DNA of 15,133 nucleotides. Source: Candidatus Latescibacterota bacterium (GTDB lineage Bacteria > JAAXHH01 > JACQVL01). The translations under genes were made by a program, and so were the position numbers. Where the stretch lies: NCBI GenBank assembly GCA_016209865.1, contig JACQVL010000344.1, positions 1 through 15,133 of the forward strand. Reading direction: 5' to 3'. Below the pieces are notes generated by a model. That model saw nothing but the letters and a program-made list of their open reading frames with translations. It had not been told where the DNA came from and did no database searches. Below, piece by piece: positions 5,214 through 14,509 of this stretch. Within the stretch, counting starts at the first letter, position 1. Every line of letters starts with the position of its first letter.

Positions 5214-5230
5214 GAGCACTCCCTGAAAAT

Positions 5231-5400
5231 AAGGACGAAGGACAAAGGTCGAAGGACGAAAAAGACTGGTTGTCAATGTTCAGGACATGGTGCATACCTA
5301 AAATACCATAAATAGACACTGTAGCAGTGCATAATGTCGTGATTATTGATACCTGGTTTTTCCTCTTCTCTTCGTCCTTTGTCCTTCATCCTTCGTCCTT
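5231..5400. repeat. 170-bp imperfect palindrome with heptamer-repeat arms
   Basis: The left arm 5231-5260 consists of AAGGACG-type 7-mers (AAGGACG, AAGGACA, AAGGTCG, AAGGACG). The right arm 5371-5400 is its inverse (CTTCGTC, CTTTGTC, CTTCATC, CTTCGTC). The two arms match at about 26 of 30 positions when paired. A second pair of inverted segments, 5273-5294 and 5328-5349, matches at about 17 of 22. The centre carries CACTG-TAG-CAGTG at 5317-5329. The element fills the gap between the etfB stop (5405) and the PLP-enzyme ribosome binding site. No target-site duplication is visible at its ends. Confidence 0.8.
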
Positions 5401-5404
5401 GCCT

Positions 5405-6154
5405 TTACAGCACCTTCGCCTCTTCTCGCAGCCTGCGAATCAACTCGGGCACCGCGTCGACCCCCTTGCCGATGAACCGGCCGGCTTGCCGCTGGGGGGG
5501 GAGCGACAGGCTCACCGTCTCCACCCGCGAGGGGATGAGCGTGGCGGCCTGCTCTTCGATCGTCGCCCGTTTGGCCCGCATAATATCCTTGAGGGACGCA
5601 TACCGCGGCTCATTCAGTCCCTTTTGCGCCGTGAAGACCGCCGGCAGCGTCGTCTCGACCACTTCCTCCCCGCCCTCGATCTGCCGGTGCACGACCGCCC
5701 GTCCGTCGGTGATCTCCAGCTTCACGATCTGGCAGACGCACGGGAGGTTGAGCAGCTCGGCGACCATCGGGCCGACCTGCGCGTTGTCGTCATCGACCGC
5801 CTGCTTGCCGAACAGCAGCAGGTCGTACGGCCGATCCGCGAGGGCGGCCGCCAGCGCGGCCGCGGTGACCGACGCATCGAGGTCCGTCTCCGCCGTCTTG
5901 AGCAGGACGCCCCGATCCGCCCCCATCGCTAACGCGTTCCGGATGACCGCCGCCGCCTCGTCAGGCCCCAGGCAGATGACCGTCACCTCGCCCCCCAGCC
6001 GCTCTTTGAGCCTGATCGCCTCTTCGACCGCAAACTCATCGTACGGGCTCAACACGTAGTTGACGTCCCGCGTCTGGATCGTTCGCCCGTTCTCAGCCAC
6101 CCGGATACGCGTCTCTGTATCCGGAACCCGTTTGATGCAGACGATGATGTTCAT
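5405..6154 (-). CDS. etfB: Electron transfer flavoprotein beta subunit
   Basis: EtfB is the AMP-binding subunit of the EtfAB heterodimer that takes electrons from acyl-CoA dehydrogenases. The 249-residue length is normal. The N-terminus MNIIVCIKRVPDTET and the internal NYVLSPYDEFAVEEAIRLKE, FGKQAVDDDNAQVGPM and LPAVFTAQKGLNEPRYASL stretches are characteristic. The frame is open upstream into the thiolase, but ATG 6154 is preceded by GGGGAGAG and gives the canonical start. It is 23 nt downstream of the thiolase stop and is the last gene of the operon. The etfA partner, which usually sits next to etfB, is not in this window; the next element is the palindrome at 5231-5400. Confidence 0.95.
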   Translation of the reverse strand: MNIIVCIKRVPDTETRIRVAENGRTIQTRDVNYVLSPYDEFAVEEAIRLKERLGGEVTVICLGPDEAAAVIRNALAMGADRGVLLKTAETDLDASVTAAALAAALADRPYDLLLFGKQAVDDDNAQVGPMVAELLNLPCVCQIVKLEITDGRAVVHRQIEGGEEVVETTLPAVFTAQKGLNEPRYASLKDIMRAKRATIEEQAATLIPSRVETVSLSLPPQRQAGRFIGKGVDAVPELIRRLREEAKVL

Positions 6155-9758: not shown

Positions 9759-10397
9759 ATGGAAGCGACTGTCGAGATTCCACTGTTTCCCCTCAACGTC
9801 GTGCTCTTTCCGGGCATGCCGCTCCCGCTGCACATCTTCGAGGAACGGTATAAACAGATGATCGGGGACTGCCTGACGTCGCGCAATCCCTTCGGGGTCC
9901 TGCTCGCCACCCAAACCCAGCTCGCCAACGTCGGATGCACGGCGGCCATCACCCAGATCATCCAGCGGTATGCGGACGGACGGCTGGACATCCTGACCGA
10001 AGGCCGCCGGCGCTTCCGCGTCCTCGACTATCACCAGCGAAAACCGTACCTCGAAGGCGCCATCGAGTATTTCGACGATGAAGAAGAGGACGTCCCTAAC
10101 GAACTGCTGGAACGGGCGATCGCCTTCTACCAGGAGATGACGGAATTGGCCACTAAAGGCCTCGGACGGGCCCAGGGGATTTTCGATCCCGTCCAGTTTT
10201 CGTTCATGATCGCCTCGACCGTGGACCGCGGACTTGAGGAAAAACAAACCCTCCTCGAATTCACGTCCACGACAGAACGGCTGTTGAAACTCATCGTCGC
10301 CCTGGAACAGAGCCTTGAACGGTTACGACTCGACCGGCAGCTCGAACAGGCCGCCAAACGCAACGGACGGGTGCAGCAGAAAAGCCGTGACGAGTGA
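9759..10397 (+). CDS. Stand-alone Lon N-terminal (substrate-binding) domain protein
   Basis: This 212-residue protein has the LON substrate-binding domain fold at its N-terminus: IPLFPLNVVLFPGMPLPLHIFEERYKQM, then PFGVLL, then the block ADGRLDILTEGRRRFRVLD. It lacks the AAA ATPase and serine-lysine protease domains of full Lon, so it cannot be a protease by itself. The second half is helical and charged. Such proteins are widespread in bacteria and their function is unclear. An in-frame GTG at 9747 exists, but GGAGA at 9749-9753 points to ATG 9759. The last residues (SRDE) and the stop codon are encoded by the first heptamers of the repeat at 10388-10404. It is expressed from the promoter at 9667-9694. 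Confidence 0.88.
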   Translation: MEATVEIPLFPLNVVLFPGMPLPLHIFEERYKQMIGDCLTSRNPFGVLLATQTQLANVGCTAAITQIIQRYADGRLDILTEGRRRFRVLDYHQRKPYLEGAIEYFDDEEEDVPNELLERAIAFYQEMTELATKGLGRAQGIFDPVQFSFMIASTVDRGLEEKQTLLEFTSTTERLLKLIVALEQSLERLRLDRQLEQAAKRNGRVQQKSRDE

Positions 10398-10513
10398 CGA
10401 GTAAAATCCAGAGCCAGGTTGAGGCTTGGGTTAAGGAGAAACCATCCCCTTAAACCTCAACCGGACTTTCACTGTTTGCCTACTCGTCACTCGTCACTGG
10501 TCACTCGTCACTG
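10388..10513. repeat. Nested palindrome with GTGACGA/ACTCGTC heptamer arms
   Basis: Outer arms 10388-10404 and 10481-10497 are perfect 17-bp inverted repeats built of GTGACGA 7-mers. The right side continues as further ACTGGTC and ACTCGTC copies to about 10511. Inside lies a second stem: GGTTGAGG (10418-10425) pairs with CCTCAACC (10455-10462), and TTAAGG pairs with CCTTAA (10448-10453), leaving a loop of about 10 nt. The element overlaps the 3' end of the Lon-domain gene and ends 2-4 nt before the thiT start codon. It could fold as a strong RNA hairpin between the two genes. Confidence 0.82.
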
Positions 10514-10515
10514 CC

Positions 10516-11106
10516 ATGCCCTCCTTCCGTACCCGCCTCCTCGTCGAGATCGCCGTGATCGCCGCGCTGGCGACGGTGCTCGGATTCATTCGCCTGTACC
10601 GGCTCCCCTGGGGCGGGTCGGTCTCCTTGAAGATGGTGCCCGTCTTCGTCCTGGCACTCTGGCGAGGGCCGCGGGCGGGCGCGCTCGCCGGTCTGCTCAC
10701 CGGTCTGGTGACCCTCATCCTCGACCCGGTCGTGCTCCACCCCGTCCAGGTCCTCCTCGACTATCCCCTGCCGTACGCCGCCATCGGACTGGCCGGGCTG
10801 CTCCGGTCGGCCCCCCGCCGGGGCCTCGTCGTCGCCGTCCTCGGCCGTGGCGTCTGCCACGTCCTCTCCGGGGCGATCTTCTTCGCCGCATACGCCCCGC
10901 CAGACCTGAACGTTCAAGTCTATACATTCCTCTCGAATCAGCTCGGCCTCTCCGTCCCCTTCCTCCTGCACTCGAACATCACCCCGTGGCTGTACTCCCT
11001 CCTGTACAACGGAAGCTACCTCCTCCCTGAACTCGTCCTGGCCCTCCTCATCGTCCCCCGCCTGCTCACACGCCTCGGCCGACCATCGGTGATCGGTGGT
11101 CGGTGA
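10516..11106 (+). CDS. thiT: ThiT-type thiamine-binding ECF transporter S component
   Basis: This 196-residue, very hydrophobic protein of about six membrane helices matches the ThiT/YuaJ family, the thiamine-specific subunit of group II ECF transporters. It works with a shared EcfA-EcfA'-EcfT module, which is not in this window. Family stretches are LPWGGSVSLKMVPVFVLALWRG (30-51), GLLTGLVTLILD (59-70), VQVLLDYPLPYAAIGLAGL (77-95), HVLSGAIFFAAYAP (115-128) and YNGSYLLPE (164-172); the last two contain positions used for thiamine binding in this family. No purine-rich ribosome binding site precedes ATG 10516; heptamer repeats run up to it. No TPP riboswitch sequence is visible upstream. The last residues (PSVIGGR) and the stop codon are encoded by a heptamer array. 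Confidence 0.87.
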   Translation: MPSFRTRLLVEIAVIAALATVLGFIRLYRLPWGGSVSLKMVPVFVLALWRGPRAGALAGLLTGLVTLILDPVVLHPVQVLLDYPLPYAAIGLAGLLRSAPRRGLVVAVLGRGVCHVLSGAIFFAAYAPPDLNVQVYTFLSNQLGLSVPFLLHSNITPWLYSLLYNGSYLLPELVLALLIVPRLLTRLGRPSVIGGR

Positions 11107-11136
11107 TCGGTCAAATCAGTGACGAGACGAGTGACC
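11084..11136. repeat. GATCGGT heptamer array plus GTGACGA-type segment
   Basis: Four 7-mers (CATCGGT, GATCGGT, GGTCGGT, GATCGGT) occupy 11084-11111 and are related to the array at 2173-2203. After a short gap, GTGACGAGACGAGTGACC (11119-11136) belongs to the other family, seen at 10388-10511. GACGAGTGACC (11126-11136) is the exact inverse of GGTCACTCGTC at 10499-10509, so thiT is bracketed by inverted copies. The array contains the thiT stop codon (11104-11106). Confidence 0.75.
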
Positions 11137-11227: not shown

Positions 11228-14200
11228 ATGGATCAGTGTCATCATCCTTTTCCATCTGTGTCATCTGTGATACGCCTCGTCCCGCTCATCCTCCTCGGTC
11301 TCGTACCCGTCACGTTCGCCGCTCCGCTCACCTGGTCCGGGGTGACGAGCGCCGACTGGCAGACCGCGTCCAACTGGTCGAGCGGCTCAGTCCCCACCGC
11401 GTCCGATGACGTGACGATCCCGGCGGATACCCCCAACGCACCCGTCCTCACGGCGGCCGGAGCCTGCCTGAGCCTGACTGTTCAGCCCGGCGCGAGCCTG
11501 TCCACAGGCACCTTCACCCTGGCCGTCAGCGGCGCGGTCGTGAACGACGGGGGGATCACGGTGGACGGGACCCTCAACGTCGCGGGCGGATGGACGAACA
11601 ACGGAACCGTCAGCGGCGCCGGAATCGTCGGGTTCAACGGGTCGGGCGCGCAAGACCTTACTGGGACCGGGCCGATCATCCCGAATGTCAGGTTCAGCGG
11701 AGGCGGGGCAGGCAAGACCGCGATGACAGACCTGGATTTCAACGGGAATGTGACGATCAACAGCGGGAACACCTTCAACGACGGCGGACACACCCTCTCC
11801 GTCGCCGGGACGTGGTCGCGGAGCGGGACGTTCGTCACGACCGGGACACTCCGCCTGGACGGCGCAGACCAGACGTTCACGTTCGGCACGTTCGCCAGCC
11901 TGACGATCGCCGGCACTGGCTCGAAGACGCCGACGAGCGGGACGCTCACGATCCCCGGCGCGTTGACGGTTCATGCTGGGGCGACACTCGCCAACGGCGC
12001 CAGCAGCGTGAACGTCGCGGGGACAGTGACGAACGACGGCATGATCAGCGGGACCGGGACGCTCACTCTCAACGGTGGAGGCCAGACGATCACGGGGAGC
12101 GGGGCGTTCAACGGTCCCGTCGCCTTCGGCGGGACCGGCACGAAGACGGCAGGCAGCCCGCTCGATTTCAACGGGAACGTCACGATCAATAGCGGAAGCA
12201 CCTTCGATGACGGCGGGTTCGCGCACACGGTCGCGGGCAACTGGACGCGGACCGGGACGTACGCCGCATCGGGCACGATCACGTTCGACCGGAACGACGG
12301 GACGGGCCAGACGATCAACGCGAGCAACTTCAACATCCTGGCGTTCGGCGGGTCGGGGACGAAGACGATCAGCGGGAGCCTGACCCCGGTCTCCCTCACC
12401 GCCTCAACCGTCTCCTCGATGACGATCGTCCTGAGCGGGACGAACACGATCACCGGGACGGGCGCAGGAATTTTTACCGTAGGGACGGACGTGACCTTCG
12501 CCGTCGGCCTCCCCACCAGCACGTCGGCGACGGGGTTTCCGTCGAACTTCGCGTCGTACGCCCTCGCCGCCACGAGCACCGTAGCATACCAGGCGAATGC
12601 CGTCCAGATGATTCGCGCGACGGACGCGGCGACCGGCGCGGCGATCGTCTACGGGAATCTCAGCCTCGGGACTGGGGGGACGGCGAGGAACAAGAGCCCG
12701 ACTGGCGACCTGTGGATCGTCGGAACTCTCACGATCGGCAGCACCGGGACCGGGACGACGACGTTGAACGGCGGGACGGCCTCGTACACCGTGGGCGGGG
12801 ATTGGACGGTCACCGCGACGGGCGCGTTCTCCATCACGGGCGGCACGGCGACGTTCAACGGGTCGGCCCAGACGATCGCGGGCGGGACGTTCAGCGCGGT
12901 GGTCGTCGCCGGGACCGGCACGAAGCGGATGGATGGAAACCTGACGATCGCTCGTGACCTGACGATCTCATCCGGGACGTTCGACGCCAACGGGTATGAC
13001 CTCACGGCCGGCACGAACGACGGGGGGAACGCGGTGTCGATCACCGGCGGCTTGATCCTCTCCGCCGGGAAATCCCTCCGGATGGCCAGCGGCGCGGCGG
13101 TGACGGTGAACAACGGCGGCACGCTCATGGCGGTGGGGACGGATGCGGGCAACAGAGTCACGCTCACCAATCAGGGGACCGGGACGTACACGATCATGAT
13201 CGCCGGCGGCGGGACGATCGACGCGGCGTATGCCATGGTCGAGTTCACGGGCGGCAACGGTCTCGACATCCAGCCGGGCGCGACGATCAACACCATGCAT
13301 CCACTCGACCATCTCGTCTTCCAGAACGGGTCGGGCGCGGCGTACCTGACGGTCAACAACGACCAGACGCTGACTGTGACGGACGTCTCGTTCGGCGCGG
13401 GGCCATCCGTGAGTGTGAGCAAGACGGCGCAGAACGATGGGATGATCCGCTTCGCCCAATACACTGGAACGATGGGCGGACCGGCGTTCGAGCAGGATCC
13501 GTTCAATCAGGTCGGCTGGTCGACGACGGCGACCCAGACGGTCACCGCCGGGAATCGTTACACCTTTGCGGGCGTCAATTCACCCGGCGGCAACGACATC
13601 ACGTTCGACGTCACGGCGGGAGCGGGCGACCTGACGGTCTCGGTCGTCTACGGACTGCATCCCGACGCCCCATCGGCCATCGGCCGCTATTACGTCATTA
13701 CCGCCCCGGATGAGTGTGTCGCGGACGTCACCTTCTCATACCAGCCCTCAGAATTGGGCAGCCTGCATGAGGAGGCGCTGATGCTCTGGCGTGTTGCAGA
13801 CGGGGAACTGGTCGGCCCGATCCCGCCGGATGAGCGGAATACGACGGGGCATTTCGTCAAGAAGAACGCCGTCTCAGCCTTCTCTGACTGGATTCTGGCG
13901 GAGGGCCCGCAGGACGTCACGCTCGCCATCGAACTGAGTCGTTTCACCGCCGCGCCCGATTATGGGAGCATTCGACTGATGTGGCGGACGGAGAGTGAGA
14001 TCAACAACCTCGAATGGCGGGTCGAGCGGAGTACACGGCCGGAGGACGGATACACGCGGATGGCGACGGTGCCGGGACAGGGGAGCAAACCGACGGCGAC
14101 GGAGTATATGTACGTCGATACGACCGTCGTGCCGGAGACGATGTATTATTACCGGCTGACGGATGTGGAATCGACCGGCGTCATGCGGACACACGGTCCG

Positions 14201-14509
14201 GTCAGCGCGGCGGCGAAGCGGCGGCTGCCGGCGCGTTACCACCTGTCCCAGAACCACCCGAACCCCTTTAACCCCGCCACGACGATCGGCTACGACCTGC
14301 CCCGACCCGGCCATGTCGTCCTGACGGTCTACAACTTGCTGGGACAGCCGATCCGCACGCTGGTAGATCGCGTTCAGCCTGCCTCCTCCTACCAGGTCCG
14401 CTGGGATGGCCGGGACGCGCAGGGACGAGCGGTGCCGAGCGGCCTCTATCTCTACCGGCTGACAGTGGGCGAGTATGCGGTGACGCGGAAGATGGCGCTG
14501 GTGCGGTGA
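11228..14509 (+). CDS. Large secreted repeat protein with type IX secretion sorting tail
   Basis: This 1093-residue protein has an N-terminal signal peptide (hydrophobic LVPLILLGLVPVTFA, cleavage near AA-P at 31-33). About 800 residues rich in Gly, Thr, Asn and Ser follow, with short strand-like repeats such as GTLTLNGGGQTITGSG and LDFNGNVTINSG; this looks like a parallel beta-helix. A fibronectin-like segment (GSIRLMWRTESEINNLEWRVERS) comes next. The end is a type A sorting domain: LSQNHPNPFNPATTIGYDL, VYNLLGQPIRTLVD, WDGRDAQGRAVPSGLYLYRL. It should be exported by Sec, then across the outer membrane by T9SS and anchored or released. GAGGGGG at 11213-11219 supports ATG 11228 over the in-frame TTG at 11204. 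Ligand or role is unknown; surface adhesin or sheath are possibilities. Confidence 0.88.
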   Translation: MDQCHHPFPSVSSVIRLVPLILLGLVPVTFAAPLTWSGVTSADWQTASNWSSGSVPTASDDVTIPADTPNAPVLTAAGACLSLTVQPGASLSTGTFTLAVSGAVVNDGGITVDGTLNVAGGWTNNGTVSGAGIVGFNGSGAQDLTGTGPIIPNVRFSGGGAGKTAMTDLDFNGNVTINSGNTFNDGGHTLSVAGTWSRSGTFVTTGTLRLDGADQTFTFGTFASLTIAGTGSKTPTSGTLTIPGALTVHAGATLANGASSVNVAGTVTNDGMISGTGTLTLNGGGQTITGSGAFNGPVAFGGTGTKTAGSPLDFNGNVTINSGSTFDDGGFAHTVAGNWTRTGTYAASGTITFDRNDGTGQTINASNFNILAFGGSGTKTISGSLTPVSLTASTVSSMTIVLSGTNTITGTGAGIFTVGTDVTFAVGLPTSTSATGFPSNFASYALAATSTVAYQANAVQMIRATDAATGAAIVYGNLSLGTGGTARNKSPTGDLWIVGTLTIGSTGTGTTTLNGGTASYTVGGDWTVTATGAFSITGGTATFNGSAQTIAGGTFSAVVVAGTGTKRMDGNLTIARDLTISSGTFDANGYDLTAGTNDGGNAVSITGGLILSAGKSLRMASGAAVTVNNGGTLMAVGTDAGNRVTLTNQGTGTYTIMIAGGGTIDAAYAMVEFTGGNGLDIQPGATINTMHPLDHLVFQNGSGAAYLTVNNDQTLTVTDVSFGAGPSVSVSKTAQNDGMIRFAQYTGTMGGPAFEQDPFNQVGWSTTATQTVTAGNRYTFAGVNSPGGNDITFDVTAGAGDLTVSVVYGLHPDAPSAIGRYYVITAPDECVADVTFSYQPSELGSLHEEALMLWRVADGELVGPIPPDERNTTGHFVKKNAVSAFSDWILAEGPQDVTLAIELSRFTAAPDYGSIRLMWRTESEINNLEWRVERSTRPEDGYTRMATVPGQGSKPTATEYMYVDTTVVPETMYYYRLTDVESTGVMRTHGPVSAAAKRRLPARYHLSQNHPNPFNPATTIGYDLPRPGHVVLTVYNLLGQPIRTLVDRVQPASSYQVRWDGRDAQGRAVPSGLYLYRLTVGEYAVTRKMALVR
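11732..12290 (+). repeat. Internal duplication inside the secreted protein gene
   Basis: LDFNGNVTINSGNTFNDGG, encoded from 11732, recurs as LDFNGNVTINSGSTFDDGG from 12161, a distance of 429 nt or 143 codons. The similarity continues on both sides (GKTAMTD versus TKTAGSP; VAGTWSRSGTF versus VAGNWTRTGTY). This shows at least one two-fold unit, with weaker GTGTKT and FNGSAQTIAGG copies further on. The DNA is still recognisably similar, so duplication is moderately recent or under exchange. Confidence 0.75.

Follow-up and report, generated by a model that had tools for sequence, protein, structure and literature searches.

A palindrome with heptamer-repeat arms between etfB and a PLP-dependent enzyme gene: a probable copy of a small intercistronic repeat class

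Known heptamer repeats and the palindrome next to etfB

So far, arrays of 7-nt units in bacteria have been described in single species, each with an explanation of its own: quadruplexes in one case, slippage products, regulator sites or RNA stems in others; heptameric repeats have also been treated in older cyanobacterial work. In the open-access literature, we found no paper that unites these heptamer systems as one class or that reports many heptamers of one architecture per genome. The nearest described counterpart of the element reported here is the GGGAATC repeat of Xanthomonas (PMC4692102). Like our element, this repeat and the GGGGA(C/T)T repeat of Nostoc (PMC4692102) are built of heptamers with a preference for four units, and carry the G-strand on the coding strand just past stop codons, with co-directional genes; in addition, the inverted pairs of Xanthomonas are always convergent, as are 32 of 32 in our host genome. 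They differ in having one heptamer per genome and in being read as G-quadruplexes, whereas the host genome harbors many coexisting heptamers, several of which are unable to form G4, around cores that are mostly unrelated.

Other described systems share part of this design. Geobacter metallireducens (PMC2700814) has multi-copy arrays of four or five heptamers, namely 49 copies of four-heptanucleotide GGACCGG elements and five-heptamer class 3 sites, the latter drawn as strand-switching, i.e. inverted; unlike ours, they have other sequences, occur also within genes and were interpreted as regulatory RNAs or regulator binding sites. In the trnL intron of Nostoc (PMC4476775), the P6b stem (Class I TDNGATT, Class II NNTGAGT) is likewise a hairpin made of 7-nt repeats; one repeat class has replaced another wholesale at the same site, the length varies and side stem-loops have been inserted, but this is a single intron-RNA site and is not dispersed in spacers. 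The TAACTGA repeats of Beggiatoaceae (PMC4679880) are intergenic heptamer arrays, patchy over phyla and possibly spread horizontally; in contrast to our element, they are direct arrays located just before start codons and are almost never inverted. REP/BIME elements with their RAYT (PMC3733652, PMC12306157) are extragenic palindromes, many close to stop codons, with effects on mRNA stability and translation; they differ in being short single palindromes, and our host genome has no RAYT match.

The window, by which we mean the whole 15,133-nt stretch analyzed (contig JACQVL010000344.1 of a Candidatus Latescibacterota bacterium), harbors a 170-bp palindrome at 5231-5400, in the spacer between etfB upstream (electron transfer flavoprotein subunit, PF01012; 5405-6154, minus strand) and a gene for a Cys/Met metabolism PLP-dependent enzyme downstream (PF01053; 4032-5213, minus strand). 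Its left arm (5231-5260), G-rich on the plus strand, comprises the four heptamers AAGGACG AAGGACA AAGGTCG AAGGACG followed by AA, while the right arm (5371-5400) is C-rich on the plus strand and reads AAGGACG AAGGATG AAGGACA AAGGACG AA as its reverse complement on the minus strand. An inverted-repeat search found these 30-nt arms to be complementary at 26 of 30 positions (87%), the very count given in the original prediction, and both arms are period-7 arrays. When the window was searched with a heptamer 16-mer at up to 3 mismatches, 6 matches were obtained vs. 0.07 expected, every one inside the two arms. Between the arms lies an AT-rich, self-complementary core (5261-5370; z about -4), within which the central CACTG-TAG-CAGTG that had been predicted can be read directly from the sequence at 5317-5329.

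In silico folding of the plus strand of the 170 nt yielded a single long hairpin (-76.6 kcal/mol, z -11.6, equaled by 0 of 200 shuffles) with its inner stem paired, in keeping with the earlier description of an almost fully palindromic element; the minus strand, which is the sense strand for both genes, gave -72.5 (z -6.3) when folded with its flanks. The element was also said to fill the intergenic gap exactly; the spacer is indeed nearly filled, but 4 nt remain to the etfB stop codon (5405-5407) and 17 nt to the PLP start codon, an ATG (5213). A scan of the window with the covariance models of Rfam 15 gave 0 matches at gathering score, and a promoter scan at the palindrome found none. The warning that the downstream protein might be falsely extended proved right: the PLP frame stays open across the left arm up to a TTG at 5276, reading MTTSLFRPSTFVLRPYFQGVL-MAHKARG..., so that automatic annotation could add 21 spurious N-terminal residues (5214-5276, minus strand), of which FRPSTFVLRP is the translated heptamer array. 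The practical consequence for annotation is that such arrays pass for coding sequence (SFVLRPS and similar peptides), falsely extending proteins.

In its architecture, the palindrome displays what defines the Xanthomonas-type class, i.e. arrays of about four units, convergent G-rich pairs and an intergenic position near stop codons with co-directional genes, the G arm beginning 4 nt past the etfB stop; the demand for quadruplex-forming G-tracts belongs to the proposed function of that class and not to its architecture. We read the palindrome as an inserted element that behaves as mobile, comparable to those reported in Xanthomonas (GGGAATC) and Geobacter. The fuller explanation that we favor, and hold to be probable with considerable room for doubt, is that it represents one copy of a small intercistronic class with heptamer arms, inserted after the etfB stop and acting as an RNA hairpin that separates the expression of the two genes. 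What supports this explanation directly are the copy families, the fixed arm design, the strand polarity, the proximity to stop codons, the empty sites and whole copies found elsewhere, and the predicted hairpin; one point against its insertion part is that cores are unshared within the host genome, unlike those of a usual mobile family.

Period 7 and the arm family in the host genome

The host genome is a 3.75-Mb assembly of 356 contigs, 83% complete. Period densities were taken from a 322-kb sample of its larger contigs, most of them already known to carry arm matches, a sample that is biased upward for AAGGACG and unbiased for other heptamers or for period 7 vs. other periods. With one threshold applied to periods 2 to 15, period 7 accounted for 47 arrays in this sample and its double, period 14, for 27, against 0-2 for any other. 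The heptamers involved are diverse (AAGGACG, ACGAGTG, ACCCCTG, AAAATCC, ACCACCG, AACCCCG, AAGAGTG and others), and array length peaks at 30-32 nt. Period-7 arrays were present in 21 of the 24 strong inverted repeats of the sample, 13 of which had one in each arm.

In all of the inverted pairs of the host genome (32/32), the 5' arm is the G-rich strand, a rule that covers AGTGACG and GATTTTG arms equally with CAGGGGT arms. The four G-rich units per arm might suggest a G-quadruplex module, as proposed for the GGGAATC repeats of Xanthomonas, and the CGGGGTT and CAGGGGT arms of this genome could indeed fold as G4. However, the tracts of AAGGACG hold only two G, short of the three or more that a quadruplex tract calls for, and AGTGACG and AGTGAAG lack GG altogether, yet have the same arm length, polarity and pairing. 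As several heptamers are without GG, the quadruplex cannot be the common principle of the class, and we regard it as a highly improbable explanation of the palindrome.

Searching the host genome with the palindrome returned about 150 matches, almost all of them to the arms, and the core found no match elsewhere; rather than being unique in the genome and poorly folding, the element has multicopy arms and a strong fold. The exact pattern of three AAGGAYR units (23-mer AAGGAYRAAGGAYRAAGGAYRAA) occurs 76 times in this genome vs. 0 or 1 time per genome of the same order, with one occurrence in total among the latter. A profile of 108 arms delineated four heptamers plus AA, i.e. 30 nt with sharp edges, the outer heptamers being mostly 83-98% conserved and the inner ones more variable; since arms were chosen at 23 or more matches out of 30, this conservation is inflated inside the arm, though not at its edges. 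Outside these 30 nt there was little signal among the 108 arms, except for a short A-rich edge and outer GC. The general design would then start at the 5' side with a G-rich array of some four 7-nt units, continue with a variable core and close at the 3' side with the complementary C-rich arm. Thirty-nine AAGGACG elements could be reconstructed, ranging from 75 to 258 in length (median 118), and their cores were mostly unrelated.

In a search for shared cores among host-genome loci, what recurs among the matches listed is a REP GTCATTCCCGCGCAAGCGGGAATCCA, arm remnants and one 43-nt match at 88%. This REP-like 26-mer has a heptamer array on either side in 10 of 19 cases, whereas 8.9% of randomly chosen intergenic points are so placed (a simple binomial puts the probability at an estimated 1e-6 or so), and it was found in palindrome cores at loci L055, L060, L061, L062, L067, L069 and others. 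Because the REP nests between arms far above chance, palindrome loops appear to collect other small repeats, and this nesting helps explain why cores differ; we surmise that cores may either drift or acquire extra repeats such as this 26-bp REP. Could the palindrome itself be a repeat of REP/BIME type, mobilized by a Y1 transposase (RAYT)? It is palindromic, multi-copy, extragenic and near a stop codon, and a separate REP-like repeat is nested in related cores, but its anatomy differs, with tandem heptamers in place of a single short palindrome, and a profile search of the host genome for Y1_Tnp/RAYT (PF01797) gave no match, a result that in an assembly 83% complete is no proof of absence. We consider this origin very unlikely. 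A second palindrome family, devoid of period 7 (TTCACCACAAAGACACAAAG.../...CTTTGTGTCTTTGTGGTGAA), was also noticed in the host genome, at L062:13755-13836 and L066:17556-17652.

The finding that period 7 is favored regardless of sequence, together with the uniqueness of cores in the host genome, points to another possible origin, namely non-mobile expansion of simple sequence, in which polymerase slippage would produce the heptamer runs in place, and a switch of template at a stalled fork their inverted copies, each site being new. Heptamers are the most over-represented long simple-sequence repeats in bacteria, and slippage has been proposed for them (PMC4692102, PMC4679880). Against such expansion in place, arms end at four units with sharp edges and dozens of loci have a single family consensus in common. 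Considering these features along with the comparisons between genomes below, we deem this origin rather unlikely.

Signs of movement and distribution across lineages

Three lines of sequence comparison suggest that the class of heptamer palindromes moves: 1) empty sites; 2) copies of whole elements; 3) its density in the host genome vs. its near absence in order-level relatives. As to the first, an Acidobacteriota MAG (G060, locus L145) carries an AAGGATG palindrome between a stop codon and an ATG, whereas in G068 (flanks 82-89% identical), G072 and G074 nothing but a short spacer separates the two genes, so that these are empty sites. The same gap holds an unrelated near-perfect palindrome in G070 (L400, G070:C13; z -13.6) and another period-7-like insertion in G059, the fold of which is not significant (z -1.4). 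That relatives hold different palindromes in the same gap would also be expected from expansion in place.

As to the second, the Hydrogenedentes MAG G062 has 415 pattern matches, and one 71-bp element, core included, recurs there at 93-96% in four other places (five in all), the copies having unrelated flanks and arm arrays of differing length; whole elements with their cores in unrelated flanks argue against expansion in place. At a Hydrogenedentes site, the flanks of relatives are too diverged for an empty-site comparison. In the same MAG, the element at L424 (G062:C809) has arms of unequal length, one expanded to about 13 AAGGATG units and the other still at about four; this growth looks like array slippage and is a point in favor of the slippage account. 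We postulate that elements may spread as whole palindromes and diverge afterwards, heptamer number and variants presumably drifting through slippage and point change.

As to the third, the sister genus (g3) had no period-7 array in 260 kb, compared with 2 in 396 kb for G011 and 6 in 140 kb for G013; G001 was excluded from these counts because its N-masked contigs give false counts. Among the genomes compared, the only syntenic relative with an etfB-PLP gap is G011, of another family in the same order, in which AATCCAA AATCCGA AATC lies beside the etfB stop with a weak fold. A different heptamer in this gap would fit replacement or independent insertion. For the copy studied here, arrival between etfB and the PLP gene would have been by insertion just past the stop codon and not by common ancestry of the spacer.

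In light of these results, the original suggestion of a MITE-like element can be retained in part: dispersal is borne out by genome-wide arms, absence from the sister species, the empty sites of a cognate element and the copies of a whole element in G062, but the formal MITE label is not. Terminal inverted repeats are present, but no target-site duplication rose above permutation over 39 elements of the host genome, internal sequence is unshared there save for nested REPs, and no transposase could be linked, Y1_Tnp alone having been searched. Shared internal sequence, which a MITE family should display, was seen for the one element in G062.

Beyond the order, the pattern of three AAGGAYR units occurs in at least 120 stretches, with chance accounting for an estimated one or so over the whole collection; the phyla among the matches listed are Cyanobacteria, Acidobacteria, Chloroflexi, Verrucomicrobia, Planctomycetes, Bacteroidetes, Hydrogenedentes, Omnitrophota, Sumerlaeota and Proteobacteria. 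A partner arm lies within 420 nt in 44 of the 137 pattern matches listed (32%), vs. 5% of random places. Among 82 polar inverted pairs in the other-phylum matches listed and in viral contigs, the G-rich arm comes first in 75 and the order is reversed in 7, of which at least 3 join two adjacent elements. The heptamer pattern was also present in 103 stretches of IMG/VR contigs (L208-L310), several with inverted arms; these stretches may be truly viral or may be host flanks.

What stands out here is the occurrence of many heptamers in a single architecture within one genome, and of the same architecture in many phyla, i.e. a widespread and poorly understood class of small repeats, apparently inserting between genes. 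With empty sites and whole-element copies, the architecture behaves as an insertion, and this behavior renders the old question of why period 7 is favored in bacteria testable. As a speculation that we consider unlikely to hold, these could be mobile palindromes shared across phyla and recognized by architecture (arms of four 7-nt units, with the G-rich strand 5') and not by sequence, with one activity spreading many heptamer families per genome and refilling the same stop-to-start gaps.

Gene context and a candidate role in the message

With genes called by a home-made codon-usage caller, the distance of elements to the neighboring stop codon had a median of 16 nt, and in several cases the arm seems to contribute the final two bases of a TAA. 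The share of tandem gene pairs around arrays (26/30) is like that of background spacers (109/132). No canonical intrinsic terminator, i.e. a G+C-rich stem followed by a T run, is present at the edges of the 170-bp hairpin, and a terminator scan returned one weak internal stem-loop on the minus strand, at the central CACTG-TAG-CAGTG. The earlier notion of an attenuator or processing hairpin is matched by the strong predicted fold; RNA processing and the extrusion of a cruciform, which was likewise proposed, are candidate readings. Given that its ends lack a T-run terminator, the palindrome most likely forms part of the operon transcript, as a long hairpin directly after the etfB stop.

In E. 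coli, REPs within 15 nt of stop codons affect mRNA stability and translation (PMC12306157), and the heptamer repeats of Xanthomonas are places where transcripts more often begin or end (PMC4692102). Based on these analogies, we infer that the palindrome may protect or process the upstream message and partly uncouple the PLP gene. In the explanation we favor, an element inserted between co-directional genes would be transcribed as a long RNA hairpin starting past the etfB stop; this hairpin would most likely separate the expression of the two genes, in that it shields the upstream message at its 3' end, provides a site for processing or partial termination and uncouples translation.

The same context raises the question of whether the palindrome is instead a selected intercistronic RNA element (a bidirectional terminator, an attenuator or a 3'-end stabilizer), retained for its function rather than through mobility. 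The very stable predicted hairpin, the median of 16 nt from stop codons with some arms providing the stop itself, and the more frequent transcript ends at comparable Xanthomonas repeats (PMC4692102) are all compatible with selection. Yet the canonical terminator is missing at the ends, the tandem-pair share is no different from background, and the element is missing from the sister species. Moreover, the two arms show no covariation within elements beyond the family consensus: left and right arms of the same element are 77.1% alike vs. 77.9% for arms of different elements, figures that give no support for ongoing selection on exact pairing. Taken together, we view retention for function as possible but doubtful.

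The window contains further heptamer repeats. A second heptamer palindrome at 10385-10512, with GTGACGA/ACTCGTC arms of about 17-18 and 31 nt, separates two plus-strand genes and folds at -54 kcal/mol, while the period-7 arrays at 11085-11111 (ATCGGTG) and 2173-2203 (GGTGGTC/GTCGGCG) are without a clear inverted partner. At 11267-14509, the window encodes a long protein that is repetitive, looks secreted and has the C-terminal end FNPATTIGYDLP...GLYLYRLTVG, reminiscent of a type IX secretion sorting domain.
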